From Sabellastarte sp. h YS-2021 (taxonomy: Eukaryota > Annelida > Polychaeta > Sabellida > Sabellidae), in NCBI GenBank assembly GCA_964017235.1, contig OZ024934.1, forward strand, positions 87,448,706-87,512,705: a DNA stretch of 64,000 nucleotides, written 5' to 3'. The notes under the pieces are model-generated. The model was not told the DNA's origin. It was given only the letters and a program-made list of their open reading frames with translations, and made no database searches. Below are positions 4,316 through 62,947 of the stretch, in pieces. Position 1 is the stretch's first letter. Each line of letters begins with the position of its first letter. Position numbers and translations under genes: made by a program.

Positions 4316-4317
4316 TG

Positions 4318-4793: not shown

Positions 4794-6912
4794 AACTAGA
4801 CCTAGCGCATCGGAAAACCGATGCAAATTGTATCCACCGTAAAGACAATGCACCAAAACCTCTAGGACCAATAATAAGCAAGTTATAAGCACTTTTAAGT
4901 TTGGCTGTCCTCATCTGACCTTCAAGGAGGGGCCCAAGGTCAAATCCGACCACGCCAGAAGATTCCCAGCCCATGATTTCCTATATGTTGGTTTACCATC
5001 CCAAACCTCTACGACCAATAATAAGCGAGTTATAGGCACTTTTACCTTTGGCTATCCTCGTTTGACCTTGAAGGAGGGGCCCAAGGTCAAATCCGACCAC
5101 ACCAGAAGATTCCCAGCCCATGATTTCCTATATGCTGGTTTACCATCCCAAACCTCTAGGACCAATAATAAGCGAGTTATAAGCACTTTTAAGTTTGGCT
5201 GTCCTCATTTGACCTTGAAAGAGGGGCCCAAGGTCAAATCTGACCACACCAGAAGATTCCCAGCCCATGATTTCCTATAGGTTGGTTTATCATCCCAAAC
5301 CTCTAAGTCCAATAATAAGCAAGTTATAAGCATTTTTATGTTTGGCTGTCCTCACTTGACCTTGAAGGAGGGGCCCCAAGGTCAAATCCGACCATGCCAG
5401 AAGATTCCCTGCCCATGATTTCCTGTATGTTGGTTTACCATCGCAAACCACTGGGATCAATAATAAGCGAGTTATAAGCACTTTTAAGTTTGGCTATCCT
5501 CGTTTGACCTCGAAGGAGGGGCCCAAGGTCAAATCCGACCACGCCAGAAGATTCCCAGCCCATGATTTCCTATAGGTTGGTTTACCATCCCAAACCTCTA
5601 GGACCAATAATAAGTGAGTTATAAGCACTTTTAAGTTTGGCTGTCCTCATTTGACCTTGAATGAGGGGCCCAAGGTCAAATCCGACCACACCAGAAGATT
5701 CCCAGCCCATGATTTCCTATAGGTTGGTTTACCATCCCAAACCTCTAGGACCAATAATAAGTGAGTTATAAGCACTTTTACCTTTGTCTATCCTCATTTG
5801 ACCTTGAAGGAGGGGCCCAAGGTCAAATCCGACCACACCAGAAGATTCCCAGCCCATGATTTTCTATATGCTGGTTTACCATCCCAAACATCTAGGACCA
5901 ATAATAAGCGAGTTATAAGCACTTTTAAGTTTGGCTGTCCTCGTTTGACCTTGAATGAGGGGCCCAAGGTCAAATCCGACCACACCAGAAGATTCCCAGC
6001 CCATGATTTCCTATGTGTTGGTTTACCATCCCAAACCTCTAGGACCAATAATAAGCAAGTTATAAGCACTTTTAAGTTTGGCTGTCCTCATTTGACCTTG
6101 AAGGAGGGGTCCAAGGTCAAATCTGACCACATCAGAAGATTCGCAGCACATGATTTCCTATATGTTGGTTTACCATCCCAAACCTCTAGGATCGATAATA
6201 AGCGAGTTATAAGCACTTTTAAGTTTGGCTGCCCTCGTTTGACCTTGAAGGGGGGGTCTAAGGTCAAATCTGACCACATCAGAAGATTCGCAGCACATGA
6301 TTTCCTATATGTTGGTTTACCATCCCAAACCTCTAGGATCGATAATAAGCGAGTTATAAGCACTTTTAAGTTTGGCTATCCTCGTTTGACCTTGAAGGAG
6401 GGGTCCAAGGTCAAATCTAACCACATCAGAAGATTCGGAGCACATGATTTCCTATAGGTTGGCTTCACATTGCAAACCTCTAGGACCAATAATAAGGGAG
6501 ATATAGGCACTTTTAAAGTCCTCTATGTGGGTTACTTCGGCATTCCGTGGATGACCTTGAGTTAGGAGCTTCAAGGTCAAATGTGTGCAAGGTTGTAGAG
6601 GACATGTATATGTGTCATACATATCACCTATGAAGAGATTCAACCTTCTACCTATGAGGAACAGCCAGTAGAAAAATGTAGATTATTTTCAAAGAAATGC
6701 CCGTGGCGGCCATCTTGTTTTTCAGAATGAGGCTATTTTCCTTCCCAGAGAAGCTTAGCCCCCAATGAAGATATCCTGCAAATTTGGTGAACCTAGCTGC
6801 TGTTGTTTTCCTCTTAGAGCGTTAACGTCGAAAATCTCTCTACGCGCGCTGGCGGCGGCGTAGTGGACGCTAAACCAAAGTATCCACCGGATGCTTCCGG
6901 TGGATACAATAA
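4794..6912 (+). mobile_element. Hairpin-ended tandem-repeat element, family A, complete
   Basis: The left end is AACTAGACCTA, then a perfect stem GCATCGG/CCGATGC with an AAAA loop, then GTATCCACCG. The right end is a hairpin with stem TATCCACCGGA/TCCGGTGGATA followed by CAATAA. The left GTATCCACCG is complementary to the right CGGTGGATAC, so the ends carry short subterminal inverted repeats. The middle is the 147-bp array and the tail contains GTGGCGGCCATCTTG. No protein is encoded. The same plan recurs at 50413-52779. It resembles pearl/HINE-type non-autonomous Helitron relatives of bivalves; that class is inferred from structure only. Confidence 0.7.
4900..6480 (+). repeat. 147-bp satellite array of family A, about 11 copies
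   Basis: TTTGACCTTGAA-type starts recur at about 4916, 5061, 5208, 5355, 5503, 5649, 5797, 5944, 6091, 6238 and 6385, a strict 147-bp step. Each unit holds an inverted pair of nuclear-receptor-like half-sites, TGACCTTGA and CCAAGGTCA, separated by a GGAGGGGCC-type spacer. The last units share (T/A)TCGCAGCACATG variants, so neighbouring copies are most alike, as expected from local unequal exchange. Confidence 0.88.
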
Positions 6913-7585
6913 GAAAAATCAAATATATAAGTAATGAATGTCCAACAGGAAAATTATACCCGAAGATTTAAATATAAACTAGAAAAATGTTTTTGCTAAC
7001 AAAAACCAAGCGTCCCAAAAAGGTTCACTGCAATATAATATACAGTAGAAAAAGGTTTTTGAAAATAAAAACATGCAGTGCTGAGAGAAGAAGTGAAAGT
7101 TAAGCAGACAGTGTGAAAGTTCATGCATTAACATGAAAGAAAAATTTAAGCTTTATTTTGTTTTCTATGGTCATAAATTGCGAAAAGTTAATTGAATAAA
7201 TGCTCTGGCTAAGAATGCATAAAGCATCAATACTTATAATAGGTCAAAAGTTACACCATAAAACTACTTAATTAAAGAGTAACAGTGCTTTATAAATGCC
7301 ATATATCTATTTACATTTTAGAACAAGAGGAGAGTGTCAGCTGACTGAGTGTTTTTGATTTGTGAAGGTGATTAGAGGACAGAATAATTATCAGGAAAAG
7401 GGCTGTACAGAAATACAGTAAATGGTAACTGAACAGCAAGTTCGAAAGAAATTCCGAAGCTGACAGAAGAAAAGGATAAAAAAGTTGTGCCCTGTAAATG
7501 GTATTATGAAGGAAAATAACAAGGTAATTGTTTAAGTGTAAAAAATAGGTTAAAACATATTTAAAGAAATACTACAAATGCAATA
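6913..7585. other. No gene seen; F-type left terminus
   Basis: At 6977 AACTAGAAAAATG followed by TTTTTGCTAACAAAAA matches the left terminus of element F at 34883, with its stem GCTTTTG/CAAAAGC slightly degraded. The rest is AT-rich with no recognisable coding or repeat content. Confidence 0.4.
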
Positions 7586-8348
7586 TCCTCGTTTGACCTT
7601 GAAGAAGGGGTCCAAGGTCAAATCTAACCACACAAATACATTCCCAGCCCATGATTTCCTATGGTTTACCATTCCAAACCTCTAGGACCAATTATAAATG
7701 AGTTATAAGCACTTTTAAGCTTGGCTGTCCTCATTTGACCTTGAAGGAGGGGTCCAAAGGTCAAATCTGACCATACCAAAAGATTCCGAGCCAATGATTT
7801 CCTATGGGATGGTTTACCATCCCAAATCTCTGTCACCAATAATAAGCGAGTTGTAGGCACTTTCAATTTTCGCTATCCTCATTTGACCTTGAAGGAGGGT
7901 TCCAAGGTCAAATCGGACCATATCAACAGATTCACAGCCCATGATTTCCTGTCTGTTTACCATCCCAAACCTCTGGGACCAATAATAAGCGAGTTATAAG
8001 CACTTTTAAGTTTGGCTATCCTTGTTTGACCTTGAAGGAGGGGTCATTGAAGGTCAAATCTGACCACACCAAAAGATTCCCACCCCATGATTTCCTACAG
8101 GTTGGTTTATCATCCCAAACCTCTAGGATCAATAATAAGGGAGATATAAGCACTTTTCATGACTGACAAAAAACACCTGTGGCGGCCATCTTGTTTCTCA
8201 AAATGAGGCCAAAAATATTCCCAGACAACATTTTATGGTTATTAATATATACTGCAAACTTAAGAAAGCTAGCTATAATATTTTTTTTCATCAGAGCAGT
8301 AATGGTGAAATCTCTCTCTACACACTGCGGCTATCCAGTGGATACAAT
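7586..8348 (+). repeat. Family A array and right end, left end missing
   Basis: Four diverged 147-bp A units (starts near 7590, 7735, 7885, 8022) are followed by the A-type tail: GTGGCGGCCATCTTG, AAAATGAGGCCAAAAATATTCCCAG-like sequence and CTATCCAGTGGATACAAT ending at 8348. No left terminus is attached. The right end abuts the family B array without a gap, the same junction found inside all three composite cassettes. Confidence 0.7.
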
Positions 8349-9940
8349 GATTTACTCAACAGTGAGAACCTGAAAGTAGCTATTGCTCAGCTATGCCATG
8401 ACATAGAGGTCTGCAATTTCACTATGTTATAGCTGACCAAAAATTCTGTGAATAACATATTTAACAAATTACTCTAAATGTAATAGTTTTCAAGTTACAA
8501 CTGATTTACTCAACAGTGAGAACCTCAAAGGAACTATTACTCAGCTATGCAATGAGCTACATGTCTGAAATTTTACTATGTTATAGCTAACCCAAAAGTA
8601 GGTGAACAACATATTTAAGCAAACTACTGTAAATGCAATAGTTTTCAAGCTACAACTGATTTACTCAATAGTGAGAACCTGAAAATAGCTATTGCTCCGC
8701 TATGCCATGAGCTACAGGTCTGTAATTTCACTATGTTATAGCTGACCCAAAAGTAGGTGAACAATATATTTTAACAAAATACTCCAAATGCAATATTTTT
8801 CAAGTTATAGCTGATTTACTCAACAGTCAGTACCTGAGAATAGCTATTGCTCAGTTGTGCCATGAGCTATAGGTCTATAATTTCACTATGTTATAGCTGA
8901 CCCAAAAGTAGCTGAATAACATATTTGCACAAATTTCTGTAAATGCAATAGTTTTCCAATTATAACTGATTTACTCAACAGTGAGAACTTCAAAGTAGCT
9001 ATTACTCAGGTATGAAATGAGCCACAGGTCTGAAACTTCACTATGTTATAGCTGACCCCAAAATAGGTGAATAACATATTGAAACAAAATACTCTAAATG
9101 CAATAGTTTTCAAGTTATAAGTGATTTACTCAACAGTGATAACCTAAAAGTAGCTATTACTCAGCTATGCCATGAGCTACAGGTCTGAAATTTTACTATG
9201 TTATAGCTGGCCCAAAAATAGTTGAATAACATATTTATATGAAATTCTCTAAATGCAATAGTTTTTAAGTAATACAAGTGATTTTACTCATGATGGAAGT
9301 TACTGAAAAGCCCAAAAGTAGCTATTACTCACTTAGCTATTGAGACAGACACCCAACTTACTCACCATATTGTAGCTATGAAAAAAGTAGCTGAATAACA
9401 TATTTTAACAAAATGCTCTAAATGCAACACTTTTCAAGTTATAAGTGATTTACTCAACAGTGATAACCTAAAAGTACCTATTACTCAGCTATGCCATGAG
9501 CTACAGGTCTGAAATTTTACTATGTTATAGCTGACCCAAAAGTAGCTGAATAACATATTTATACGAAATTCTCTAAATGCAATAGTTTTCAAGTTATAAG
9601 TGATTTACTCAACAGTGATAACCTAAAAGTAGCTATTACTCAGCTATGCCATGAGCTACAGGTCTGAAATTTCACTATGTTATAGCTGGCCCCAAAGTAG
9701 CTGAATAACATATTTATACAAAATTCTCCAAATGCAATAGTTTTTAAGTTACAAGTGATTTTACTCATAATGGAAGTTACTGAAAGCCCAAAAGTAGCTA
9801 TTACTCACTTAGCTATTGAGACAGACACCCAACTTACTCAGCATATTGTAGCTATGAAAAAAGTAGCTGAACAACATATTTTCACAAAATGCTGTAAATG
9901 CAACACTTTTGAAGTTATAAGTGATTTAGTGCATGATTTC
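8349..9940 (+). repeat. Family B 155-bp tandem array, about ten copies
   Basis: The unit starts GATTTACTCAACAGTGA and holds AAAGTAGCTATTACTCAGC, GAGCTACAGGTCTG, CTATGTTATAGCTGACCC and AATGCAATAGTTTTCAAG. Starts at 8349, 8503, 8658, 8813 and 8967 give steps of 154-155 bp. Later units include a divergent form starting ATTTTACTCA(T/A)(A/G)ATGGAAG, seen twice (about 9280 and 9757), so this copy has a duplicated end segment. Not coding. Confidence 0.82.
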
Positions 9941-10518
9941 ATGAATTTTAATGCATTAAAAATTATTAAAAAAATTTATTAAAAAAAAAGTAAGACAGAT
10001 CCAGGTCTCATACTCACACAAGAGAATCTACCTCTGGCCTAGTACATATATGCAAGATATGAGAGAAATTCCTGCAATAGTCACTGAGAAAATTGTGATA
10101 AAAAGTTGAAATTTTCACACTTTTGGTGGGGGTACCCCCCTTGTAATGTCTCTAGCAAACAGACGAACAGACAGATTTGCATGCCTTGAACAATTTTTCA
10201 TCCTCGATAGATAAGGTATCTTTTAAAAAAAACAGCATGTCTCTAGGCCTTGTAGTTTTGGAGAAGAAGTTGTTCACGCGGACGCGTACGCCCACGCCGC
10301 AGAGTGATGACATAATGTCAGCTAACATAAAAAGGCAGAGTAAAATGTGAGCCTTTAGAAAGGCAAGAAGTTTACGACACAATGCTTTGAACACATCTAT
10401 CTGGTAAATCTGACCAGCTATCTAGACTCTTCACATAAGGTTTCCCAATACCTCTGAATACATTGTAAATCTCTAAAAGCAAGAATAAAATAGATATAAG
10501 GCAAAAACACAAAATTGG
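9941..10518 (+). repeat. Interspersed repeat module plus family F fragment
   Basis: From about 10085 to 10320 the sequence (TTGTGATAAAAAGTTGAAAT, TTTTCATCCT(C/T)GATAGAT, AATGTCAGCT) matches modules at 38367-38573 and 42297-42510, where it follows family E tails. From about 10400 it changes to a family F unit (CTTCACATAAGGTTTCCCAA, ATACCTCT, AATACATT), which is cut by the DIRS-like element at 10519 and resumes at 16612. Confidence 0.6.
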
Positions 10519-10730
10519 AAAATTTAATAGTAATTTAAATTTTTATTAGAAATACTTACCATTTCCTAACGGTAGCTATTTATTGGAACCATCCAACCCA
10601 ATGGCCAACGCAGAGATGCGATTTTTAAGGTTATATAACAACCTTAATCAAGCTATTGGGTTACAGTAGTCCGTCCTCCCGCCAAATAGGTCTCATGACC
10701 ACATTGTTTACTTCATTATTTTAGTTGCAA
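10519..10730 (+). repeat. Left inverted terminal repeat of the DIRS-like element
   Basis: From TACCATTTCCTAAC(G/A)GTAGCT onward to CATTGTTTACTTCATTATTTT this is the near-identical reverse complement of 16420-16590, over about 180 bp. The outermost part (AAAATTTAATAGTAATTTAA to TTTTTATTAGAAATACT) differs between the two ends, as is usual in DIRS elements. Confidence 0.88.
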
Positions 10731-10770
10731 GTAAAAGAATGACTTGCGGGGAGGCGGGAGGGAAATTTGA

Positions 10771-10868
10771 GTGTTAGGAAATGGTAAGTATTTCTAATAA
10801 AAATTTAAATTACAATTAAATTTTCCAATTTTATAGCGAAATACCCTTACCATTTCCTAACAGTAGCT
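10771..10868 (+). repeat. Internal complementary region of the DIRS-like element
   Basis: The left half (GTGTTAGGAAATGGTAAGTA to AATTAAATTTTCC) is the reverse complement of the left terminus. The right half (CCAATTTTATAGCGAAATAC to CCTAACAGTAGCT) is the reverse complement of the right terminus. The two halves are joined head to tail exactly as the circle junction of DIRS replication would require. Confidence 0.88.
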
Positions 10869-13800
10869 GAATGCAGCCTTGTAGGATGGAGGGAATTCTT
10901 TTAAGAAAACCACTACCTAACCTACAACTGAACATCATGAGAACTTCACAATGGAATTTACATGCAATAATGAACATATAAACTTACAACAATCACAACA
11001 TACAACTCCCCAAAAAATGACAGTATGTAGTTGTAGTTCTCACAATTGCTGACAATGTTGGTGTTGCAATAGATAGCCCATCTACATTGTGACATCCGAC
11101 CCCAAAACAAAGTCAAACCAACCTGAAACTGTCATCAGCATAATGCCTAACCCTTCCCAAGTCAGATTTAGGCAACATTGATATCAACTACAAATACATC
11201 CAGCATTGCAGACATACCAGCCACAAACTGCAAATGTACAAATATAAGCATGAAACACATACTTATAAAGTAACAAAACTGTAACTGCACTGTAGGACCC
11301 AATTTCAAATCTGACCCTATGCCAACAGAGATTTTTCAAACAGAAATTGGTATACATACAATGGAATTTCCAATAACATGCATCAAGAAACTCATGTAAG
11401 GAAATTACCTATACAAACTAAAGATGCAATCAAAACATACATCAATAGCTTCTGTGACTCAATCTTGACTCAATCAAGATGAAATAGGTGCCAAAGGAGA
11501 AGTCCTTTTAAGAAACTTTCTTAATGGCAGTAAAACAAAACCTTTTGATCACCAAACTCCTAACAGGAACAGACAGACCCATATTGAGTCAACTGTTGTC
11601 CAAAGAGGCTAAGAGCTGGCATGACTACAGGCTTAATTGCAGTAGGCCCATCCAAAGCCAACTGGTTCTGGCAATTGAAGGACCAGAGTTACTTGAGACC
11701 CATTCTCCTTATAGCTAAAGGAAGAATATGTCCAAGTATTAATGTCACTCCTTTAACATGAATCCTAATCCCCAGAGACAAAGACCCCTGGCTCAATTGC
11801 AGTAATTGCAGTAGGCCCATCTGAAGCCAACTGGTTCATGGCCAAAAAGGCAGTCAATGGGCCAAATTACCTGTGACCAATTCTCCCTACAACTAAGGGA
11901 AGGGTTCAAACATGAATGTCACTACTTTACCTGAAGCCAAACCCAAAAACTGTCTTGAAAGGTAATGACTTCAAGAAAGCCTTCCTCACAAGCTCAAAGG
12001 TTGTTTGATAAGAGCATGAAGGACCAATGACAAAATTCAAAACTATTGATTTGTCTCTTACTAAAAGTTGCTAATCTCTTATTTATCTCAACTTTTAGAT
12101 ACTTCTTGACCCTTCAAGCCCCAAACCATCCGCAATTGCTGTTCTATAGCCCACAATAATGGATGGTATTAGGATGTTTCCTTAAACTAGTATTACAGGA
12201 AATTTGCTCCATGTGGAATAGTGGGGTCTGAGATATAAACCTGGCTCTCTTCACACCACTTCCCAAAATAGAACAATTGATTCTCAGATTCTCCTTGAGG
12301 AGTGCTCCTTTATTGTTTCACCACTTCCTCTGGGAATCTTCCATAATATTCATGCCTGACTACAAATACCAATCATGAAGATTCAAGTAAACTAGATTGT
12401 TGTGAAGTCTATTGCAGAATGGTTAAGTCAACAGATTCACCCATTTAGAAGGAGTTTTGTGGACAGATCCACCAGACCCAAAAACCAAGACATCCCTGGC
12501 CACCCTGGTGCAATCATGATGATTCCACACCTGTAGATGGTCATTTGTTGAATCACCAGAGGGATGAGGGCCACTGGACAAAACACATAACTGACCAGAC
12601 CCTTCCACGAGACATTCCATGCCTCTGTTTCCCAAGCCTGACTGTCTGGGACATGAGACACATACATCTTTTGCATCACCTGCAGGATCAAGGTCCTGGG
12701 CAAAACATTTGTTTCCCAAGCCTGACAGGAGACCTACATAGGTCTTTGTTGCAACACATCAACCACTGATTGATGGGAGCAATGGCAAATTCAATTGAAA
12801 AGCTGATGATTCATAGCCCCTTTGGTTTGAAACACCTTATCTCTCTGGACAAGGAATGTGCTAGAACTCTCTGGATTGTAGATTCTCTGGGATGCACTTC
12901 CCCAGAATCTGAATCATCCTGGCATTCGTCCAACCCATGATTCTTCAGATTACCTGATAGTGGATGCCTCCCTGGTTGTTCAAATAGGCCACCACTAAAG
13001 AATTGTCTGTGAAAATCAACAGATTTCTATTCAGAAGCTGATTTCTGAATCATTTTTAAGCTAAACAACATTGCTTTTAGCTGTCAAATGTTATGTGGAG
13101 CCTTGACTCTTCCTGATTCCATAGACCACTGGCTGTGGATGCCTCAAGTGAGCATCCCAACCCTTAGGTAAGCATCTGTGAAAGGAAGGAGACTGTGCTC
13201 CTTCTGAAGGAGTGGTGTATACTCCTTTCAAATTAAACAATTGGTCCCCCACTGAAGATGATCCCTGTGAACCAGAGCAGTGGGATATCCAGAGACTAAA
13301 GATATCCGCAGTGTTCCCAGATACCATTGGAGAAACTTCATGTGCAGACCTCCCAATGGTGTAGTCTTCTCCATTGAAGCCATGCTTTCAAAGTGACATG
13401 AGCTTCCCTGGAAATGAGTGAGAAGTTTTCAACATGGTAACCGTCTTTTCAAGAAGACAATCGATTTCCTTTGAGTTGAGAAGACTAGCCCTACCCTGAG
13501 GTCGAATTGTAAACCAAAAATTCGATTACTGGAGTTGGAAATAAATCTGATTTTTAGAAATTTGTGATCCAACCCAGGCTTTCAACAAGATGCACCAACC
13601 AGTAGGTGTTTTCTTGGCACTGCTTTGAGTTGTTGTCATTAAGCCAACCGTCTAACTGGCGAATACTGATGCCTTCTGCGAGTGCCATCAGCTTCACCTC
13701 CTTTACTACCTTGGTGAACTTGTAACTGTAGCAATACTGAAGGGTAAGGCAGTGAACTGGTAGAATCTGTAGCCTCCAATAAAGCGAAGATACTTTTGTT

Positions 13801-14446
13801 AGCTGAGTCTACCAGTGATGAGTGTGTAGCCATAAAGGTCTAGTGACGTCATCCACTCGCCTTCTATAGACGAATTCCAAATATTAAACAATTTCATATC
13901 AAGTAAGGTACATGCAAGCTTGTTACCTGCCCTTAACTACTACTGGCTGCCATTAATCTTGCTTGCTTGTCACAAGAAATAAACTGTAAAACTCAAGCGA
14001 TGTGACACTTAACTGGTGTTATCGCCCTTTTGTCAATCATTTGATAAACAGCTTTTATCAAAACTGCTGTGTGTCTCATTTTTTTTTCTTTTTTTTTTCA
14101 CTTCTGCCAACCTCACTTCTGAAAGGTCTGGCTGAATATCACACAGGACGCCATCTACCATCCCTGCTTCCATGGGCCTGTATAAGTAAGATCCTCTCCC
14201 CTTTTAACTAGCTGAGGAGTAGGAGGCACTTGTAACTCTATTTAAAGGGAAACTGAAAGGGACAAAAAAGATCTTCTCTGAGGTCTGTGGTCCCTTTCCT
14301 AGTCCAGCCTAGGAGCATGTTCATTTCCAGACTTAATAATCATCCTTATTGTCCTGAAATCACTGGATAAAAATCCTCTGAACATCTGAAATATGTGCAG
14401 CAAGAGAACCTCTTAACTGCGAATAAATGCATTTTATTATCCACCA

Positions 14447-14960
14447 CGCGACGTATTTGCCCTAAATACGGGGAAATACAGACCGGGATGTATTTTTTTT
14501 GTATACACCGGCGCCCCGGTACTATGGATATTGAGTGTGATTAACTTCCGGTTTTTCAACAATATCTCGGAAAGTATGTAACTTAAAAATATGTATAATA
14601 TATCATTAGAAAGGTGTTATTCTAGCGCTTCTGCTCATGTATGTTGCATAAATATCCATGCAGAAATGACTGAGATATTGCAAGGTAAAGATTGAAGTTT
14701 TATATTCAGTGTTGCTCATCCTTTTTGACAGTCTGTTTCACGTTTTCTCATTAAATATTCATATTATTTGACCCATAAATCGCACAAAATGGTGGATAAT
14801 AAAAGTAAAACATCCCTCATCAGACATATACAGAAAAAATATATCACTCAAGAAGATTAACAATATAATACTCGTGCTTCGCACTGGTATAATATTGTTA
14901 TCTTCATTCGTGATATATTTTTTCTGTATACGTCATTCGGGACGTTTTCCTATTGTAGGT
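14447..14960. mobile_element. Palindromic insertion inside the DIRS-like element
   Basis: TTTATTATCCACCA at about 14455 and its exact inverse TGGTGGATAATAAA at about 14790 bracket AT-rich non-coding sequence. Next to it, about 14828-14937 forms a long imperfect hairpin: ATACAGAAAAAATATATCAC pairs with GTGATATATTTTTTCTGTAT around the loop CTCGTGCTTCGCACTGG. Neither part looks like DIRS coding sequence, so I read this as one or two small nested fold-back elements. Confidence 0.55.
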
Positions 14961-16419
14961 TTTCTAAACTTTAAGGCATTCTAAGTTACATCCCTTCTTT
15001 TGAGTCACATGTTCTTAGACATGGTCAAACTCCAACAAGAAGATTTGAACACAAACTAGATGACTGGACTGAAATGCAACACATTGCATCCGGTCCAAAG
15101 CGTTATTGAAGTCTATATCTTCTATGGTGATCCCTAAGATCCTTTAAATTAGACCTGAATTGACAAATCAATACACTTTTGGTCTCTGCAGAGTACGGTC
15201 TTCTACAAGGGAACTTGTTCCTAAAGTATCGGAAAGTGAACTTCCTGCAGACCTCCTGCAACTAAGGAGCTGTCCAGGAAAGTGATTCATGAAAGGAAGT
15301 CCAAGCAAAAACTTCTTCCTACATAAGTGCTATTTTTTAAAAAAAACATCAGAGGCTTCAAACTCCTTGAAACCCAACATAAAGGCCACATTCAATGCTG
15401 GCTGTTCACCCAAGGAATGTGGGAATTTCAAGATGTAGGTAAATGTGACAAAATGAGGGAGCATTCACAGTATCTGTGTCTGTTAAATCAATCCCTAGCC
15501 ACTCAATAACAGTGAGCCAAATCTCTGAAAAATAAGGAATAGATTTCTTGTATTCTTGAGATGAATCATAATCCCCATCACCTGACAACCTGATTCTAAA
15601 CCTTTTGAGAGGTATCGAAACCCGATTGTACTCAATTCTTGTCCAAAAACCATTTAATCAAAAGCCTCTCCTTGTAGATATGAATGACACTCCCCGACAT
15701 CTGACAACCCGAATCTAAACCTTTTGGGAGGAATAGAAAACTCGATTGTCCTTGAATGACGTCATGCAGGTATTTTCCTTTACTGAATGTTTTGACTGGA
15801 CCTCGACAGAAGAGTTTTCCGAAGAGGTAGTCTAATCAAGCATTCAAAACTCCTCCATGGTGCAGTGTCCACAGTAACTAAAAATGGCTGCCCCCAAGGG
15901 AGATTCCTTCTTCTGTAGCATCGACAATCTATTCAACTGGGATGCATACTGTGATAAAATTGCCTTCAACGCCTGGCTATTAGAACCCGACGTGAACAGC
16001 AAATAACGGCCATTCGAATTGTCATTCTCATCCAAGATGGCGTCGTCCAGATCGCTTCTGTTATTCAAGAGTACATTCTTTCTAAATATGTATGCTGCAA
16101 AATTATAGCTTCCAACGTCCAGCAAACTGAACCAAATGACTGGCAAACTATATAAATACTATTATTGTTGCATTATGACCTTCTTTATGTTGATTTATTT
16201 CCTAGAGGTTGACGACGATAGAACTTCAGATGTCCCCATCCAAAAGTCCTTCATTTGTATAATAATAATGACTTCCTTCGAGGATTTAAAATTTAATGTA
16301 TAAGTTCTGTAACATATACAAGAAAATATGAAGTGAAATTCACTCTAAAACCCCCAAATAAATAAAAATCCTGACAAAACTTCTACTAATTCCAAAAGAC
16401 ATCCATACTGTTGATGGCC

Positions 16420-16611
16420 AACAAAAATAATGAAGTAAACAATGTGGTCATGTGACCTAATTGGCGGGAGGACAGACTACTATAACCCAATGGCTTGATT
16501 AAGGTTGTTACATAACCTTAAAAATCGCATCTCTGCATTGGCCATTGGGTTGGATGGCTCCAACAAATAGCTACTGTTAGGAAATGGTAAGGGTATTTCG
16601 CTATAAAATTG
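16420..16611 (-). repeat. Right inverted terminal repeat of the DIRS-like element
   Basis: The reverse complement matches the left terminal repeat for about 180 bp (AGTAGCTATTTGTTGG, CCATCCAACCCAATGGCCAA, GCAGAGATGCGATTTTTAAG) with roughly a dozen differences. It ends GGTAAGGGTATTTCGCTATA before the flanking AAATTGGCTATTTTATG of the interrupted family F unit. Confidence 0.88.
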
Positions 16612-17310
16612 GCTATTTTATGACCCCAGTTTGACCCATAAGGGCGGGTCTGGGGGTAAATATGACCGGCTATCTTGACTCTTCACATATGGTTTCCCAA
16701 TACCTCTTAATACATTCTCAAGCTCTAGAAGCAAGAATAAAGGAGATATAAGGGGAAAAGATGAAATTGGCTATTTTATGACCCCAGTTTGACCCCAGGG
16801 GGAAATTTGACTTGGTTTCTAGACTCTCCACATATGGTTTCCTACTACCTTCCAATACATTTTATGGCTCTAGATGCAATACTAAAGAAGATAATAGGGG
16901 GGTTCACATGAATTTTAAGCTTTCTGATTGGTACCTGTGAGAAAATCACTCGTAAATGGGTCAATTTTCATCGGATTGCTCCCAAAATCTAATCAGCTCA
17001 CGTTTTTGATAGTATAAACATGTGTATGAAGTTACAAGCCTCTGCGGTCAGTAGATTTTCCTGAACTGCGATGACGGGCGGGTGTACCCGAAAAAACTAT
17101 TTTTTGATCATGTGACCTTGATAAAGATCAAAGGTCAAATTTAAGCATGTGGAAAAATTTTCCCACGCCTAAGGTATATATAACTGCCAAATATGGTTAA
17201 AAAGCTTGCAATAATAAGGGAGATATTCAAGGGAGACCATAATGCTGCGGCGGCGAGGAAACTGAGGTGAAACCAAATAAGCGCCCTTTCAGGGACGCTT
17301 AATTATTAAA
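16612..17310 (+). mobile_element. Family F element, right part with terminal hairpin
   Basis: Two units of about 148 bp (AAATTGGCTATTTTATGACC to AGATATAAGG) are followed by a unique tail with CTGAACTGCGATGACGGGCG, CCCACGCCTAAGGTATATA and AAGGGAGACCATAATGC. The end is a hairpin with stem TAAGCG...CGCTTA, closing at about 17305. The left part lies beyond the DIRS insertion (about 10400-10518), so the DIRS element split an older family F element. A second F element is at 34883-37012. Confidence 0.65.
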
Positions 17311-17745
17311 CCACAAGAACAGATTTATAATAATAACTCAGAATTGAGAATTAAATGTGTGATCATCAACTGAAATAAGTTCATAACTAATCGTGTCAAA
17401 ATGAACTGAAGCAAGTTGAACTAGACTAAGGACGCATCTGTGGCCAGATGCTGGATGTATCCACCGACAAAGGCCAACTAACATAGTTTAGAAGATAAAC
17501 AGCATATTTCGTTAATAAGCAAGCTGAAAGCACTTTTAAGTTTGGTTACCCTTATTTGACCCTGTAGCAGGGGCCCAAGGTGAAGTCTGACCTGATCAAA
17601 AGATTCACAGCCCATGATTTCCTATAAGTCGTTTTCACATTGCAAACCTCTAGGACCAATAATAAGCAGGAGGGGCCCAAGGTCAAATCTGACCACATGA
17701 AAAGATTTGCAGCCCATGACTTCCTATAAGTTGTTTTTATATTAA

Positions 17746-18890
17746 TGAGTTATTTGAGAAATACTGGCTATCTGCAATACTTCTAGAGATAATTCGCATT
17801 TACTCATTTTGAGTAGGTGAATAATTAGCTACGGGTCTGAAACTTCACCAAGTGAAAGCTCTCTCAAAAGTAGGCGAATGAGTTATTTGAGAAAAATTGG
17901 CTATCTACAATACTTTTAGAGATAATTCGAATTTACTCATTTTCAGTAGGTGAGTAATTACCTACGGGTCTGGAACTTCACCATGTGAAAGCTGTCCCAA
18001 AAGTAGATGAATGAGTTATTTGATAAAAATTGGATATCTGCAATACTTTTAGAGATAATTAGTATTTACTCATTTTGAGTAGGTGAATAATTAGCTACAG
18101 GTCTGAAACTTCACCAAGTGAAAGGTCTCCCAAAAGTAGGTGAAGGAGTTATTTGACAAAAATTGGCTATCTGGAATACTTTTAGAGATAATTTGCATTT
18201 ACTCATTTTCAGTAGGTGAGTAATTACCTACGGGTCTGAAACTTCACCAAGTGAAAGCTCTCCCAAAAGTAGGTGAATGAGTTATTTGAGAAAAATTGGC
18301 TATCTACAATACTTTTAGAGATAATTCGAATTTACTCATTTTGAGTAGGTGAATAATTAGCTACAGGTCTGAAACTTCACCAAGTGAAAGGTCTCCCCAA
18401 AGTAGGTGAAGGAGTTATTTGACAAAAATTGGCTATCTGGAATACTTTTAGAGATAATTTGCATTTACTCATTTTGAGTAGGTGAATAATTAGCTATGGG
18501 TCTAAAACTTCACCATGTGAAAGCTCTCCCAAAAGTAGATGAATGAGATAATTGATAAAAATTGGATATCTGCAATACTTTTAGAGATAATTAGCATTTA
18601 CTCATTTTGAGTAGGTGAATAATTAGCTACAGGTCTGAAACTTCACCAAGTGAAAGGTCTCCCAAAAGTAGGTGAAGGAGTTATTTGACAAAAATTGGCT
18701 ATCTGGAATACTTTTAGAGATAATTTGCATTTACTCATTTTCAGTAGGTGAGTAATTACCTACAGGTCTGAAACTTCACCAAGTAAAAGCTCTCCCAAAA
18801 GTAGGTGAATGAGTTATTTGAGAAAAATTGGCTATCTGCAATACTTTTAGAGATAATGCAGAATTACTCATTTTTAGTAGGCAAGTAATT
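17746..18890 (+). repeat. Family C 133-bp tandem array
   Basis: Units start GAGTTATTTGA(G/C)AAAAATTGG and contain CAATACTTTTAGAGATAAT, TTTACTCATTTT(G/C)AGTAGG, AGCTAC(A/G)GGTCTGAAACTTC and CTC(T/C)CCCAAAAGTAGGTGAA. Starts at 17746, 17880 and 18013 give steps of 133-134. Units with GAATAATTAGCTAC and GAGTAATTACCTAC alternate, hinting at a two-unit higher-order pattern. Family B has the same motifs in the same order, so B and C share an ancestor. Confidence 0.82.
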
Positions 18891-19649
18891 TAGCCACAGG
18901 CCTAATTTAGACATAAAGCCTACCAATAGAATACTGTGGTGCACCCTCTAATATACCTTGCAAACTTGAGAAGGCTAGCTATAATATTTTTTTCGTTAGA
19001 GCGGTAATGGTGAAATCTCTCTACACACTGCGGCTATCCAGTGGATACAATGATTTACTCAACAGTGAGAACCTGAAAGTAGATATTGGTAAGCTATGCC
19101 ATGACACAGAGGTCTGCAATTTCACTCTGTTATAGCTGACCAAAAATTATATGAATAACATATTTAAACAAAATACTGTAAATGTAATAGTTTTCACGTT
19201 ATAACTGATTTACTCAACAGTGATAACCTCAAAGTAGCTATTACTGAGCTATGCAATGAGCTACATGTCTGAATTTTTTCTATGTTATAGCTGACCCAAA
19301 ATTAGGTGAACAACATATTTAAGCAAAATACTGTAAATGCAATAGTTTTCAAGTTACAACTGATTTACTCAATAGTGAGAACCTGAAAATAGCTATTGCT
19401 CAGCTATGCCATGAGCTATAAGTCTGTAATTTCACGATGTTATAGCTGACCCAAAAGTAGGTGAACAACATATTTTAACAAAATACTCCAAATGCAATAT
19501 TTTTCAAGTTACAAGTCATTTACTCAACAGTCAGTACCTGAAAATAGCTATTGCTCAGTTGTGCCATGAGCTACAGGTCTGTAATTTCACTATGTTATAG
19601 CTGACCCAAAAGTAGCTGAATAACATATTTACACAAATTTCTGTAAATG

Positions 19650-20700
19650 CATTAGTTTTCCAATTACAACTGATTTACTCAACAGTGTGAACTTCAAAGT
19701 AGCTATTACTCAGCTATGCAATGAGCCACAGGTCTGGAACTTCACTATGTTATAGCTGACTCCGAAATAGGTGAATAACATATTGAAACAAAATACTCTA
19801 AATGTAATACTTTTGAAGTTATAAGCAATTTACTCAACAGTGATAACCTAAAAGTAGCTATTACTCAGCTATGCCATGAGCTACAGGTCTGAAATTTTAC
19901 TATGTTATAGCTGACCCCAAAGTAGCTGAATAACATATTTACACAAATTTCTGTAAATGCAATAGTTTTCCAATTACAACTGATTTACTCAACAGTGTGA
20001 ACTTCAAAGTAGCTATTACTCAGCTATGCAATGAGCCACAGGTCTGGAACTTCACTATGTTATAGCTGACTCCGAAATAGGTAAATAACATATTGAAACA
20101 AAATACTCTAAATGTAATACTTTTGAAGTTATAAGCAATTTACTCAACAGTGATAACCTAAAAGTAGCTATTACTCAGCTATGCCATGAGCTACAGGTCT
20201 GAAATTTTACTATGTTATAGCTGACCCAAAAATAGCTGAATAACATATTTACACAAATTTCTGTAAATGCAATAGTTTTCCAATTACAACTGATTTACTC
20301 AACAGTGTGAACTTCAAAGTAGCTATTACTCAGCTATGCAATGAGCCACAGGTCTGGAACTTCACTATGTTATAGCTGACTCCGAAATAGGTAAATAACA
20401 TATTGAAACAAAATACTCTAAATGTAATACTTTTGAAGTTATAAGCAATTTACTCAACAGTGATAACCTAAAAGTAGCTATTACTCAGCTATGCCATGAG
20501 CTACAGGTCTGAAATTTTACTATGTTATAGCTGACTCCGAAATAGGTGAATAACATATTGAAACAAAATACTCTAAATGTAATACTTTTGAAGTTATAAG
20601 CAATTTACTCAACAGTGATAACCTAAAAGTAGCTATTACTCAGCTATGCCATGAGCTACAGGTCTGAAATTTTACTATGTTATAGCTGACCCAAAAATAG
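19650..20700 (+). repeat. Two-unit higher-order repeat of about 310 bp in the B array
   Basis: A pair of distinct B units (one with GCAATGAGCCACAGGTCTGG and GACTCCGAAATAGGT, one with AAGCAATTTACTCAACAG and ATGCCATGAGCTACAGG) repeats nearly without change at about 310-bp steps (AAGCAATTTACTCAAC near 19823, 20133, 20443 and again near 20598). Composite copies 2 and 3 carry this pair only once, so the amplification happened at this locus after the copies separated. Confidence 0.8.
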
Positions 20701-22531: not shown

Positions 22532-22779
22532 ATAAAATATACAGCACTGTCACACCCCTCAATACACCAAATTCATCTGTAGAAGCGCACACGCTCAGTG
22601 CTCGTACTATCACCCATCCCCAAAACACATAAAACTGTGTAAAGTTCTAAATGCCCACCCTTTCCAACAAAATATGAAGTCCAGATTCTTTTACAAATGT
22701 TTTACTTAATTTTCAACTGCTTAACTTTACAAAAAGTGTATAATTTTAAGCATTGCAAAGCATAAATATAGCTTTGTAA

Positions 22780-37930: not shown

Positions 37931-37939
37931 AGACAAAGA

Positions 37940-50412: not shown

Positions 50413-52779
50413 AACTAGACCTATCGCATCGGAGAACCGATGCAAATTGTATCCACCAGAAGAAAACTCACCAAAGCCATTCTAACATCGCTTAACCTTG
50501 AAGGAGAAGTCCAAGGTGAAATCTGACCATATCAAAAGATTCTTAGCCCATGATTTCCTATAGGTTGGTGTGACACTGCAAACCTCTAGGAATTCGAATA
50601 AGCAAGATATAAACACTAATTTTGGCAATCCTCATTTGACCTTGAAAGAAGGGCCAAAGGTCAAATCCGATCACACCAAAAGATTCCCAGCCCATGATTT
50701 CCTAGATTTTGGTTTCCATTCCAAAGCTCTAGGACCAATAATAAGCGAGTTATAAGCACTTTTAAGTTTGGCTATCCTCGTTTGACCTTGATGAAGGGTA
50801 CAAGGTCAAATCCGACCACAGCAATAGATTCCCAGCACATGATTTTGTGTACTATCCTCGTTTGACGTTGAAGGAGGGGTCTAAGGTCAAATCCGACCAC
50901 AGCAATAGATTCCCAGCCCATGATTTTCTATATGTTGGTTTACCATCCCAAACCTCTAGGACCGATAATAAGCGAGTTATAAGCACTTTTAAGTTTGGCT
51001 ATCCTCATTTGACCTTGAAGGAGGGGTCCAAGGTCAAATCCGACCGCAGCAATAGATTCCCAGCCCATGATTTCCTATAGTTTGGTTTACCATGCCAAAC
51101 CTCTAGGACCGATAATAAGCGAGTTATAAGCACTTTTAAGTTTGGCTATCCTTGAAGGAGGGTCCAAGGTCAAATCCGACCACACAAAAAGATTCCCAGC
51201 CCATGATTTTCTATAGGTTGGTTTACCATCCTAAACCATCCTAAACCTCTAGGACCAATAATAAGCGCGCTATAAGCACATTTAAGTTTGGCTGTGCTCG
51301 TTTGACCTTGAAGGAGGGGTCCAAGGTCAAATCCAACCACACCAAAAGACTCCCAGCCCATGATTTCCTATAGGTTGGTTTACCATCTCAAACCTCTAGG
51401 ACCAATAATAAGTGAGTTATAAGCACTTTTAAGTTTGGCTATCCTCATTTGACCTTGAAGGAGGGGTCCAAGGTGAAATCCGACCACACCAAAAGATTCC
51501 CGGCCCATGATTTCCTACAGGTTGGTTTACCATCCCAAACCTCTGACCGTGAAGGAGGGGTCCAAGGTCAAATCTGACCACACCAAAAGATTCCCAGCCC
51601 ATGATTTCCTATAGGTTGGTTTACCATCCCAAACCTCTAGGACCAATAATAAGCGAGTTATAAGCACTTTTAACTTTGGCTATCCCCGTTTGACCTTGAA
51701 GGAGGGGTCCAAGGTCAAATCCAACCACACCAAAAGATTCCCAGCCCATGATTTCCAATAGGTTGGTTTACCATCCTAAACCTCTACGACCAATAATAAG
51801 CGAGTTATGAGCACTTTTAAGTTTGGCTATCCTCCTTTGACCTTGAAGGAGGGGTCCAAGGTCAAATCCGACCACACCAAAAGATTCCCAGCCCATGATT
51901 TCCTATAGGTTGGTTTACCATCCTAAACCTCTACGACCAATAATAAGCGAGTTATGAGCACTTTTAAGTTTGGCTATCCTCCTTTGACCTTGAAGGAGGG
52001 GTCCAAGGTCAAATCCGACCACACCAAAAGATTCCCAGCCCATGATTTCCTATAGGTTGGTTTACCATCCGAAACCTCTAGGACCAATAATAAGCGAGTT
52101 ATAAGCACTTTTAAGTTTGGCTATGCTCGTTTGACCTTGAAGGAGGGGTCCAGGGTCGAATCCGACCACACCAAAAGATTCCCAGCCCATGATTTCCAAT
52201 AGGTTGGTTTACCATCCCAAACCTCTAGGACCAATAATAAGCGACTTATAAGCACTTTTAAGTTTGGCTATCCTCGTTTGACCTTGAAGGAGGGGTCCAA
52301 GGTCAAATCAGACCACACTAAAAGACTCCCAGCCCATGATTTCCTAAAGGTTGGTTTACCATCCCAAACCTCTAGGACCAATAATAAGCGAGTTATAAGC
52401 ACTTTTCATGACTGCAAAGAAATGCCTGTGGCGGCCATCTTGCTTTTCAAAATGAGGCCAAAAATATTCCCAGTCAAGATTTTATAATGAGGAACATATC
52501 CTGCGAATTTGAGATCTCTACTTATAATACCCTTTGCTCTAGAGGGCCACCAAAAGTCCTTGTTTAAAGTCGAAAAACACCCGTGGCCGCCATCTTGTTT
52601 TTCAAAATGAGGCCAAAAACATTCCCAGGCAAGATTTTATGGTTATGAATATATCCTGCAAATTTGAGAAGGCTAGCTATAATATTTTTTTCGTTAGAGC
52701 GGTAACGGTGAAATGTCTCTACACACTGCGGTGGCGGCGGCGTAACGAAGTCAAATCCATAGTATCCACCGGATACAAT
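50413..52779 (+). mobile_element. Hairpin-ended tandem-repeat element, family A, second complete copy
   Basis: The left end AACTAGACCTATCGCATCGG with stem GCATCGG/CCGATGC and GTATCCACC matches 4794. The 147-bp array (about 50490-52410) has roughly 13 units, several with internal deletions. The tail carries two successive GTGGC(G/C)GCCATCTTG blocks (52430 and 52584), then TGGCGGCGGCGTAACGAAGT and the right end TATCCACCGGATACAAT. Compared with 4794-6912 the array has a different unit number and GGGGTCC- instead of GGGGCCC-type units, so the two copies amplified separately. Confidence 0.75.
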
Positions 52780-55104: not shown

Positions 55105-55792
55105 GTAAAGTAGCCAATGAGAAAATTGGGATAAGTGTTGAAATTTTCAAACTATGAAAATAGGGATGGCTACTCTGCAGAGATACCCTCCAGGTCAAAA
55201 ATTTCATTGAAATTACTCTATCTAGCACAGTTTTGCGAGATGTTAGCATTTCTGTGTTTTGCAATATTTGCGAAAAATTCGAAAATTCAAAATGGCCGCC
55301 ATTTTTTGAAAATTGGCATGGCTACTCTGCAGAGATACCCTGTGGGTCAAAAATTTCATCGAAATCGCTCTATCTCGCATGGTTTTCGAGATATAAGCAT
55401 TTTTGTGTTTTCCTTATTTGGAAAATTCGTAATGATTAATTAATCATTAATTACCCGGCCATTTCTTAACCAATCACTGCCAAAATCTAATGATTTCCAG
55501 ATTTTAATAGAATGAATGTATTTGCCAAGTTTGAGGTGAATTGATAAAATTCCTTTCAAGTTATCATCCTGATAAATTTACCCTTCGAAAAAAACACATT
55601 TTTGGTCATGTGACCTCTCTGATTGGTCGAAATGTCACTGCAGCCTATTCAAAAAAATTCCCAACGGCTACTGCAAACACCTGCCAAATTTGAAAAGAAT
55701 CCGCCCAACGGTCACACAGTTATAAGGAAAACGAAATGCGGAGCCTAATTCTCTCCCATACTCAAATAAGCGTCCCACAAGGGACGCTTAAT
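55105..55792 (+). mobile_element. Family I element with terminal hairpin
   Basis: Two units of 152 bp (TGGCTACTCTGCAGAGATACC at 55167 and 55319) with AATCGCTCTATCTCGCATGG and AAAATGGCCGCCATTTTTTG, then TGGTCATGTGACCTCTCTGA, GGCTACTGCAAACACCTGCC and a perfect terminal hairpin TAAGCGTCCC/GGGACGCTTA ending near 55792. The hairpin is nearly that of family F, so the two share a right terminus. Confidence 0.65.
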
Positions 55793-59914: not shown

Positions 59915-62872
59915 AACTAGAAATAGGACGCATCTGTGGCCAGATGCTGGATGTATCCACCGACAAAGGCCAACTAACATAGTTTAGAAGATAAAAAGCA
60001 TTTTTCGTTAATAAGCAAGCTGAAAGCACTTTTAAGTTTGGCTACCTTTATTTGACCCTGTAGCAGGGGCCCAAGGTGAAGTCTGACCACTTCAAAAGAT
60101 TCGCAGTCCATGATTTCCTATAAGTCGTTTTCACATTGCAAACCTCTAGGACCAATAATAAGCAGGAGGGGCCCAAGGTGAAATCTGACCACATGAAAAG
60201 ATTTGCAGCCCATGACTTCCTCTAAGTTGTTTTCATATTAATGAGTTATTTGTGAAATACTGGCTATCTGCAATACTTGTAGAGATAATTCGCATTTACT
60301 CATTTTGAGTAGGTGAATAATTAGCTACGGGTCTGAAACTTCACCAAGTGAAAGCTCTCTCAAAAGTAGGCGAATGAGTTATTTGAGAAAAATTGGCTAT
60401 CTACAATACTTTTAGAGATAATTAGAATTTACTCATTTTCAGTAGGCGAGTAATTACCTACGGGTCTGGAACTTCACCATGTGAAAGCTCTCCCAAAAGT
60501 AGATGAATGAGTTATTTGATAAAAAATTGGATATCTGCAATACTTTTATAGATAATTAGCATTTACTCATTTTGGGTAGGTGAATAATTAGCTACAGGTC
60601 TGAAACTTCACCAAGTGAAAGGTCTCCCAAAAGTAGGTGAAGGAGTTATTTGACAAAAATTGGCTATCTGGAATACTTTTAGAGATAATTTGCATTAACT
60701 CATTTTCAGTAGGTGAGTAATTACCTACGGGTCTGAAACTTCACCAAGTGAAAGCTCTCCCAAAAGTAGGTGAAGGAGTTATTCGACAAAAATTGGCTAT
60801 CTGCAATACTTTTAGAGATAATTTCCATTTACTCATTTTGAGTAGGTGAGTAATTACCTACAGGTCTGAAACTTCACCAAGTGAAAGCTCTCCCAAAAGT
60901 AGGTGAAGGAGTTATTTGACAAAAATTGGCTATCTGCAATACTTTTAGAGATAATTTGCATTTACTCATTTTGAGTAGGTGAGTAATTACCTACGGGTCT
61001 GAAACTTCACCAAGTGAAAGCTCTCCCAAAAGTAGGTGAAGGAGTTATTTGACAAAAATTGGCTATCTGCAACACTTTTAGAGATAATTCGCATTTACTC
61101 ATTTTGAGTAGGTGAGTAATTACCTACAGGTCTGGAACTTCAGCATGTGAAAGCTCTCCCAAAAGTAGGTGAATGAGTTATTTAAGAAAAATTTGCTATC
61201 TGCAATACTTTTAGAGAAAATGCAGAATTACTCATTTTTAGTAGGTAAGTAATTTAGCCACAGGCCTAATTTAGACATAAAGCCTACCAATAGAGTACTG
61301 TGGTGCACCCTGTAATATACTTTGCAAACTTGAGAAGGCTAATTTTTTTTTTGTTAGAGCGGTAATGGTGAAATCTCTCTACACACTACGGCTATCCAGT
61401 GGATACAATGATTTACTCAACAGTGAGAACCTGAAAGTAGATATTGGTAAGCTATGCCATGACATAGAGGTCTGCAATTTCACTCTGTTATAGCTGACCA
61501 AAGATTATGTGAATAACATATTTAAACAAAATACTGTAAATGTAATAGTTTTCACGTTATAACTGATTTACTCAACAGTGATAACGTCAAAGTAGCTATT
61601 ACTCAGCTATGCAATGAGCTACATGTCTGAATTTTTTCTATGTTATAGCTGACCCAAAATTAGGTGAACAACATATTTAAGCAAAATACTGTAAATGCAA
61701 TAGTTTTCAAGTTACAACTGATTTACTCAATAGTGACAACCTGAAAATAGCTATTGCTCAGCTATGCCATGAGCTATAAGTCTGTAATTTCACGACGTTA
61801 TAGCTGACCCAAAAGTAGGCGAACAACATATTTTAACAAAATACTCCAAATGCACTATTTTTCAAGTTACAAGTCATTTACTCAACAGTCAGTACCTGAA
61901 AATAGCTATTGCTCAGTTGTGCCATGAGCTACAGGTCTGTAATTTCACTATGTTATAGCTGACCCAAAAGTAGCTGAATAACATATTTACACAAATTTCT
62001 GTAAATGCAATACTTTTCCAATTACAACTGATTTACTCAACAGTGTGAACTTCAAAGTAGCTATTACTCAGCTATGCAATGAGCCACAGGTCTGGAACTT
62101 CACTATGTTATAGCTGACTCCGAAATAGGTCAATAACATATTGAAACAAAATACTCTAAATGTAATACTTTTGAAGTTATAAGTAATTTACTCAACAGTG
62201 ATAACCTAAAAGTAGCTATTACTCAGCTATGCCATGAGCTACAGGTCTGAAATTTTACTATGTTATAGCTGACATAAAAGTAGCTGAATCACATATTTAT
62301 ACAAAATTCTGTAAATGCAATAGTTTTCAAGTTACAATTGATTTTACTCATGATGGAAGTTACTGAAAAGCCCAAAAGTAGCTATTACTCACTTAGCTAT
62401 TGAGACAGACACCCAAGTTACTCACCATGTTGTAGCTATGAAAAAAGTATCTGAATAACATATTTTAACAAAATGCTCTAAATGCAACACTTTTCAAGTT
62501 ATAAGTGATTTAGTGCATGATTTCATGACTTTTAATTCATTTTAGACATTTTTGTCTACCACAGGCCTAATTTAGACATAAAGCCTACCAAAAAGATAGG
62601 GTGGCGAGTCCTCTAGCATACCAAGCCACCTGCCAAATATGAAAGAAATCTGGAAAGAAATGTGGACTGTAGGTCGCTAACAAGCAATATTCCACATTTT
62701 AGACATTTTTGTCTACCACAGGCCTAATTTAGACATAAAGCCTACCAAAAAGATAGGGTGGCGAGTCCTCTACCATATCAAGTCACCTGCCAAATATGAA
62801 AGAAATCCGGAAAGAAATGTGGACTGTAGGTCGCTAACAAGAAATCTCTGCGGACGCGGACGCGGACGAGGG

Positions 62873-62903
<31 letters not shown>

Positions 62904-62947
62904 GATGATGAATCCATAGTATCCCCGCTTCGCGTCGGGGATACAAT
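59915..62947 (+). mobile_element. Composite hairpin-ended cassette C+B, copy 3
   Basis: Same architecture as copies 1 and 2: AACTAGAAATAGGAC, perfect stem GCATCTG/CAGATGC, GTATCCACCGAC; C array 60240-61250 (about eight units); linker with internal right end GTGGATACAAT at 61409; B array 61410-62510 (about seven units); duplicated TTTGTCTACCACAGGCC module; hairpin TATCCCCG/CGGGGATACAAT. The linker has lost the GCTATAATA part found in copies 1 and 2. Confidence 0.78.
62849..62904 (+). repeat. GCGGAC hexanucleotide run
   Basis: Eight or so GCGGAC/GAGGGC-type words in the tail of composite copy 3. The same place in copies 1 and 2 has only two or three, so the run expands and contracts among copies. 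Confidence 0.85.

Follow-up and report, generated by a model that had tools for sequence, protein, structure and literature searches.

Among described systems, the HINEs come closest to the elements considered here, with a published plan that comprises a 5' subterminal inverted repeat (subTIR), a spacer, an inverted repeat (IR), a microsatellite, tandem repeats, a 3' subTIR and a palindrome (PMC4067079, PMC7492417). A 64-kb window of the genome of the polychaete Sabellastarte sp. h YS-2021 (contig OZ024934.1, positions 87,448,706 to 87,512,705; the whole stretch of DNA that was analysed) holds, on its minus strand, satellite-carrying elements which are very probably non-autonomous Helentron/HINE-type rolling-circle transposons. 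In the oyster Crassostrea gigas, the text of PMC7492417 describes Cg_HINE elements whose flanks are related although their arrays are not (group 2), and also double arrays; these elements prefer TT, leave no duplication and had no autonomous partner matched to them. The window elements share with them the succession of subTIR, IR, microsatellite, central array, subTIR and palindrome, the related ends with unrelated arrays, the double arrays and the absence of duplication. The target of Cg_HINE is TT, whereas the window elements run from TT to CTAG and lie at TYA|TT; the likeness is drawn from the published description, not from end sequences. Unlike for Cg_HINE, nesting and chimeric pairs of ends are visible within one window.

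Other systems share part of these features. Oyster Helitron groups carry satellites and have common terminal boxes (Boxes 1-5; PMC8268682), and the texts on other oysters describe Helitron-linked dispersal and different arrays in one element (PMC11136912, PMC12628747). The pearl elements of bivalves (CvA, CvE, CvG), with modular ends and ~160-bp repeats, are likened to those of the window by description only (PMC7492417, PMC11136912). With regard to the intact Helitrons of C. gigas, 257 of 751 are described with subTIRs, and CTAG ends, A|T sites (86%) and the phrase 'possible evolutionary intermediates' are found in the same text (PMC7992393); these subTIR Helitrons resemble the window elements in their CTAG end, A|T insertion and subTIR, with an IR in a third, but have a 5' TC and, as described there, a microsatellite in just one. 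In Phytophthora infestans, proto-Helentron-Pi has the 5' TT, the 3' CTAG and the A|T insertion without duplication of the window elements, but it is ~14 kb long, codes for Rep/helicase and is described as Helitron-like rather than Helentron-like in structure (PMC4067079). FoHeli1/2 of Fusarium oxysporum, a Helitron2 variant, likewise have hairpins at both ends, asymmetric inverted repeats and a target starting with TNAT, but these fungal elements start with TCAG, end with ATTTT and occur as coding and non-autonomous copies. In the account given for them, a nick at the outer 5' end and unwinding to the first 3' end turn nested copies into chimeric ones (PMC5148889). Furthermore, helitrons with several termini have been described as derived from nested ones (PMC3288121), and the 3' hairpin of Helraiser as its terminator (PMC4778049). 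The idea of shared ends that distribute satellites is thus already in print in the oyster papers (PMC7492417, PMC8268682, PMC11136912). What the window adds, as far as seen, is the combination of TT…CTAG termini with HINE anatomy, together with chimeric end pairs; judged from the running text of papers, the TT…CTAG termini may be new. Nothing relevant appeared among the matches listed for AACTAGA together with Helitron.

All coordinates below are window positions, and elements are described on the minus strand. Read in this way, the families show the same order: 5' subTIR/IR hairpin, short microsatellite, tandem array, 3' subTIR, palindrome and CTAG, the palindrome being weak in family G and absent in E. 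Since this order equals the published HINE plan, AACTAGA marks the 3' end and the so-called right hairpin the 5' end. The original prediction, which had read the elements from left to right, therefore had their orientation reversed: its AACTAGA…TATCC start is the 3' end (…GGATACAA, palindrome, CTAG|TT), and its right hairpin is the 5' subTIR/IR. Its proposal of one shared terminal design with Helentron/HINE-type anatomy holds. The main elements are the following:

A1, 4796..6909, minus strand: 5' TTGTATCCACCGG hairpin, CG-rich microsatellite, 147-bp array, subTIR, 7-bp palindrome, CTAG; the reverse complement reads TTGTATCCACCGGAAGCATCCGGTGGATAC, microsatellite, array, GGTGGATACAA, GCATCGG-TTTT-CCGATGC, CTAG
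A2, 50415..52778, minus strand: A family, 5' hairpin shortened, subTIR match of 8 bp
Composite 1, 17421..21327, minus strand: B-type 5' end, A-type 3' end
Composite 2, 23670..26408, minus strand: sits in a 288-bp repeat of element E
Composite 3, 59917..62946, minus strand: 94.9% identity to composite 2 (alignment of 2,453 columns)
E, 23444..28781, minus strand: 288-bp repeats, split by composite 2; subTIR TGTATCCC[C/T]GGACG
G1, 35423..36923, minus strand: 159-bp x 3 array, inside F1; subTIR ATATCCCCAGAC
F1, 34885..37011, minus strand: 5' hairpin AAGCGTCCCTGAAAGGGCGCTT, 3' stem GCTTTTG/CAAAAGC, CTAG; holds G1

The ends are related to different degrees. Over 67-94 bases, B, E and G resemble one another in their 5' ends (77-80% identity), while in the alignment A is like these three in its hairpin and in one short block similar to GAAATCTCT. 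Family F agrees with the others in plan and in the TT…CTAG termini alone; the original prediction had placed it among the AACTAGA families, and the AACTAGA end is indeed present, but its box differs from that of the other families and its far end, at ~37011, had been overlooked. A 5' TT and a 3' CTAG are found in all eight end pairs listed (AACTAG served as the search motif for 3' ends, and the repeated TT makes the boundaries ambiguous). Short CGCCGCC- or GTCCGC-like microsatellite runs, some of them degenerate, follow in the 10 5' ends printed. All 11 recognised 5' ends (A1, A2, composites 1-3, E, G1, 22532, F1, F3 and 55791) lie on the minus strand, which a coin toss would give with a probability of ~0.001, given independent insertions. 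An A-like fragment without ends, at 47174-47976, sits on the opposite strand.

The terminal motifs are far more frequent than expected by chance, and on one strand. Exact AACTAGA occurs 15 times on the plus strand and three times on the minus strand of the whole window, including all seven positions originally reported (4794, 17419, 23668, 34883, 35421, 50413 and 59915), each of them exact. With TATCC at most 48 bases away, it is found eight times on the plus strand and never on the minus strand, against a mean of 0.18 and a maximum of 1 in 60 first-order Markov simulations of a single strand. Permitting one mismatch in AACTAGA leaves a weaker excess (nine plus, three minus; simulated mean 3.75, maximum 8). 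The hairpin TATCC-N3-24-GGATANAAN, that is TATCC…GGATA[CT]AAT, was found 12 times on the plus strand and not on the minus strand (simulated mean 0.12, maximum 1), so that all exact matches of both kinds are confined to one strand. Of these 12 hairpins, eight are terminal; those at 8348, 19051, 24901 and 61409 are internal and degenerate. A scan for T.ATT followed by a perfect arm of at least 8, with no TATCC required, gave 12 five-prime-type sites on the minus strand (seven known ends, one new F-type end and four others) and eight on the plus strand, of which six fall, by position, within A arrays; it failed on A2, F1 and F3, where the arms are shorter or imperfect. Stems of at least 7 near CTAGTT were found at six sites on the minus strand and none on the plus strand. 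In 20 simulations the means were 0.55 for the former scan and 0.1 for the latter. The stem-plus-CTAGTT sites 59422 and 15056 (minus) and 21341 (plus) match no element border and were dropped.

With regard to the subTIRs, A1 has 15 bp (one mismatch, the first 12 identical), E 14 (one mismatch), G1 12 of 12 and F1 15 (one mismatch), all within the length of about 11 bp or more that is typical of HINEs; the three composites (9 with one mismatch) and A2 (8) fall short of it. When each 5' end is compared with its own 3' end, the scores are 12 for A1, 11 for E, 12 for G1, 12 for F1 and 8 for A2, and for E, G1 and F1 the own 3' end gives the row maximum of the 5'-by-3' comparison. The 5' hairpins of A1, composite 1, E, G1 and F1 fold at -8.5 to -14.2 kcal/mol, with 0 of 200 shuffles as stable in each case; that of A1 is at -14.2 kcal/mol, and A2 is weaker (-3.5 kcal/mol, 7 of 200). 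The small stem originally reported at the AACTAGA end is borne out in A1, composite 1 and F1 (0, 0 and 1 of 200 shuffles), whereas G1 has a weak one (17/200) and E none (92/200), and in composite 2 it is broken. The 3' palindrome lies 11 nt from the 3' end in A (2/2), 13 nt in the composites (2/3) and 10 nt in F (2/2), within the 8-35 bp known from HINEs.

The elements also lie within one another: composite 2 stands inside E, and G1 inside F1. In all, ten left ends can be paired with ten right ends as brackets that are fully balanced and agree in family. Such an arrangement never arose when all labels were shuffled 200,000 times, nor when the right-end families were shuffled 20,000 times; the test is post hoc, gives the composites one label and omits the 1990 stub, the truncated A copy that begins at 3332, the four 5' ends that are internal and the F-type 5' end at 55791. 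The further features that bear on nesting are:

Uninterrupted G1 insertion site, 17082..17310, minus strand: within proposed F3; CCCTTA|TTATTGCAAG
Proposed F3, 6979..17302, minus strand: F-type ends at 6979 (3') and 17302 (5'); holds other insertions
Proposed old G element, 2705..22532, minus strand: G-type 3' end at 2705, G-type 5' end at 22532
G-type 5' hairpin, 22503..22532, minus strand: TTATATCCCCAGATGAAAGTCGGGGATATA
G-type 3' end, 2703..2785, minus strand: 89% identical to 35421-35503
Extra F-type 5' end, 55768..55791, minus strand: TCA|TTAAGCGTCCCTTGTGGGACGCTT; no partner found
Truncated A copy, 3332..4321, minus strand: CTAG terminus missing
Stub like the C/A-type 3' end, 1990..2060, minus strand: box lost; no partner found

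We propose that F3 is one element holding other insertions, with collinear F pieces at 10403-10514, 16612-16893 and 17056-17302. The 2705-22532 pair, in an unproven reading, would be one old G element containing A1, F3 and composite 1; apart from its ends, it shares nothing with G1 but a stretch of 71 bases (75%). No empty site was found for these two longest brackets. Two hairpins, presumably those labelled D and E in the original prediction, had been left there without a left end: that at 28782 pairs with 23442, and that at 22533 perhaps with 2703. Within the proposed F3, ~6 kb at 10549-16599, bounded by 181-bp inverted repeats (93%), part the element between F units; this insert may be a DIRS-like element, and eight open reading frames (ORFs) inside it gave no Pfam match.

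The composites had been treated as ordinary elements with a C+B body. On the minus strand their order is a B 5' end, a 157-bp doublet, a B array (155 bp), a degenerate A-type 5' end, a C array (133 bp), ~1.5 A units and an A-type 3' end. The 5' end of A1, which scores 13 with the 3' end of A2, scores 11, 8 and 11 with those of composites 1, 2 and 3. For the B-type 5' end of the composites, the own 3' end gives 6, and none of the 3' ends compared gives more than 7. These scores indicate that a B-type 5' end is joined to an A-type 3' end, and the three chimeric copies have different flanks. The related internal features are:

A array in B array, 7541..9957, minus strand: B array, internal A-type 5' end, A array, B-unit fragment
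B-unit fragment, 7541-7585, minus strand: 83% identity, same orientation as the B array
Internal degenerate 5' ends, 8332..8348, 19035-19051, 24885-24901 and 61393-61409, minus strand: A-type, four copies

The B|A junction of the composites (GAGTAAATCA|TTGTATCCACTGGATAGCC) recurs at 7541-9957 (GAGTAAATCA|TTGTATCC), but there an A array follows instead of C, so that one identical junction stands at four loci with two different arrays behind it. The A array at 7541-9957 has B sequence to its left and to its right, an arrangement that we read as an A element nested in a B array with its A 3' end lost. The four internal A-type 5' ends lack ~31 bases, microsatellite included, that are present in the A2 end (52779), and in the alignment the eight terminal TATCC-type ends keep bases in these columns; the shared loss may be a single deletion, passed on by copying. 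Folding predicts no terminal hairpin at the internal end 19050. A terminator bypass at a weak right hairpin was rejected as the origin of the composites, the internal hairpin being a 5' end on the minus strand.

The insertion sites agree with a target of A|TT. G1 splits a sequence that stands whole at 17082-17310 (84% and 94% identity on the two sides): the empty site reads CCCTTA|TTATTGCAAG and the filled one CCCTTA|TTATATCCCC…CTAG|TTATTAGAAG, so that G1 inserted at A|TT with no clear duplication. For composite 2, the empty site is approximate, as the joined flanks GGATGAAATTA+TTGAGTTTTGG show two differences from the 288-bp unit at 26948 (GGATGAAATGATTGAATTTTGG). The original expectation of no fixed-length target duplication is borne out, none being needed at either site, the clear one of G1 or the approximate one of composite 2. 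The HINE pattern of a TT target without duplication thus recurs, more exactly as A|TT, with a TT duplication still conceivable. All eight terminal TATCC-type 5' ends are flanked by T-Y-A|TT (TTA in six, TCA in two); a T at -3 with an A at -1 accompanies 624 of the 7,418 background TT (0.084 per TT), which gives 2.5e-9 if independent, for a rule noticed on the same data that test it. The three F-type 5' ends are flanked by TAA, TAA and TCA, the first two being perhaps homologous flanks. Two hAT-like inserts, taken as a control, do have duplications of 8 bp, in which 7 of 8 bases match (GTACCTGA/GTAGCTGA; GTATTCAG/GTATTAAG). These hAT-like miniature elements lie at 54604-55021 and 30026-30429, one of them inside a B array.

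The satellite bodies differ, as the original prediction had it: 26 of 28 repeat-unit pairs are unrelated, B155 and C133 are clearly related (score 55 against a maximum of 24 in 60 shuffles), and A147 with a 146-bp unit is marginal (24 against 22). The repeat family of that 146-bp unit occupies 32035-33895, 37939-38366 and 41668-42290 and has, on its minus-strand 5' side, ACCCCACAGCCC-TTAA-GGGCTGTCGGGGT and a GGGC microsatellite, a HINE-like plan of unrelated sequence; it was left out of the superfamily for want of a recognisable 3' end. In viral contigs, exact patterns gave 0 matches each for the A unit, the B unit and the hairpin of the 146-bp family, and Rfam gave no match at gathering thresholds. 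With ORFs taken as stop-to-stop frames, a 230-aa frame in A was rejected as a gene, being a by-product of the 147-base unit (49 codons). A 521-aa open frame at 2-1564 (minus strand) runs off the window, is cysteine-rich near its start and has no Pfam match.

Several observations weigh against Helentron/HINE-type elements that nest and form chimeras. A search for 3' stems gave none in G (0/2) or E (0/1), in line with folding, which is weak in G1 and absent in E. Covariation was rejected as proof of the 5' hairpin, a single pair being no better than shuffles (54/500). In A1, G1 and F1, 26-32 nt separate the 3' subTIR from the 3' end, less than the 38-60 given for mite HINEs. No Rep/PIF1 motifs were found in the six frames of the window, and 8 of the 11 ORFs of at least 110 aa, plus 10 others, gave nothing above the curated Pfam cut-offs; with no Rep, helicase or endonuclease in the window, the class of enzyme is deduced from the ends. 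A TT duplication is indistinguishable from a TT carried by the element. At the composite 2 site, an A precedes TT in one of six comparable units (26948), the other five reading GG|TT, GG|CT or AG|CT, so that this site backs A|TT only if the target resembled 26948. Finally, the base after AGTAAATCA in the 21 B units listed is G in 16, C in four, A in one and never T, and TTGTA is shared at the B|A junction; the junction therefore fits A|TT poorly, and a microhomology fusion is possible.

This last point leads to the alternative that survives best, in which the composites arose by recombination, microhomology fusion or array exchange instead of rolling-circle transposition of a nested pair. We regard it as a real, if lesser, possibility: besides the shared TTGTA and the absence of A|TT from the B units listed, the text of PMC7492417 suggests recombination or junction fragments for double arrays, but B flanks the A array on both sides at 7541-9957, as nesting predicts, and nesting is seen directly elsewhere, with G1 in F1 and composite 2 in E. 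Fusion and nesting are compatible and not mutually exclusive. That the elements are canonical Helitrons (5' TC, 3' CTRR) is improbable; the CTAG 3' end, the stem that A, C and F have 10-13 nt from it and the A|T insertion would suit them, but the canonical TC is met at no 5' end (TT in 8/8), the hairpin is terminal and subTIRs of 12-15 bp are present in A1, E, G1 and F1. Least probable of all are cut-and-paste DNA transposons or foldback elements of the miniature inverted-repeat type (MITEs), with hairpin ends and a constant TT duplication, to which TT at both borders of the eight end pairs and the classing of pearl elements as MITEs in PMC5139131 might point, because the ends are asymmetric (a hairpin at the 5' terminus against subTIR, palindrome and CTAG at the 3' one), neither empty site needs a duplication and the two hAT-like inserts, read alike, do show theirs.

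For elements of the Helentron/HINE kind, the anatomy of the ends leads us to infer both the enzyme and its chemistry. An autonomous Rep/helicase element elsewhere in the genome would nick the 5' end (TT with the subTIR/IR hairpin), unwinding would pass through the satellite array and halt at the 3' palindrome and CTAG, and the copy would insert at A|TT. Elements can land inside one another in the same orientation, and when a nested pair moves, copying would begin at the outer 5' end and stop at the first 3' end met, that of the inner element; a B-A chimera is what such copying leads one to expect. The product would have a single 3' end but two 5' ends and two arrays, namely a B 5' end, a B array, a disabled A 5' end, an A/C array and an A 3' end. 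In the order of events that we propose, an A element would have inserted into a B array, its internal 5' end would then have decayed, copies would have started at the B 5' end and finished at the A 3' end, and C would later have displaced most of the A array. That chimeric elements appear to have moved favours one machinery that distributes many satellites, a common rolling-circle enzyme acting on all families. A further step is tentative and, on balance, doubtful: a satellite-stacking ratchet, in which elements insert preferentially into each other's arrays in the same orientation, transposition from outer 5' to inner 3' end fuses their satellites and the useless internal 5' end decays.

The spread of satellites through euchromatin and the origin of double arrays are open points in the oyster papers, for which the window offers exact ends, a target and empty sites, as well as the apparent stages of a composite: A alone, A nested in B and a mobile B-A/C chimera. 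It also provides a profile with which an autonomous partner can be sought, TYA|TT-subTIR-IR … subTIR-palindrome-CTAG|TT. If the ratchet were true, multi-satellite elements would be built repeatedly, and families with mismatched subTIRs would share one enzyme.

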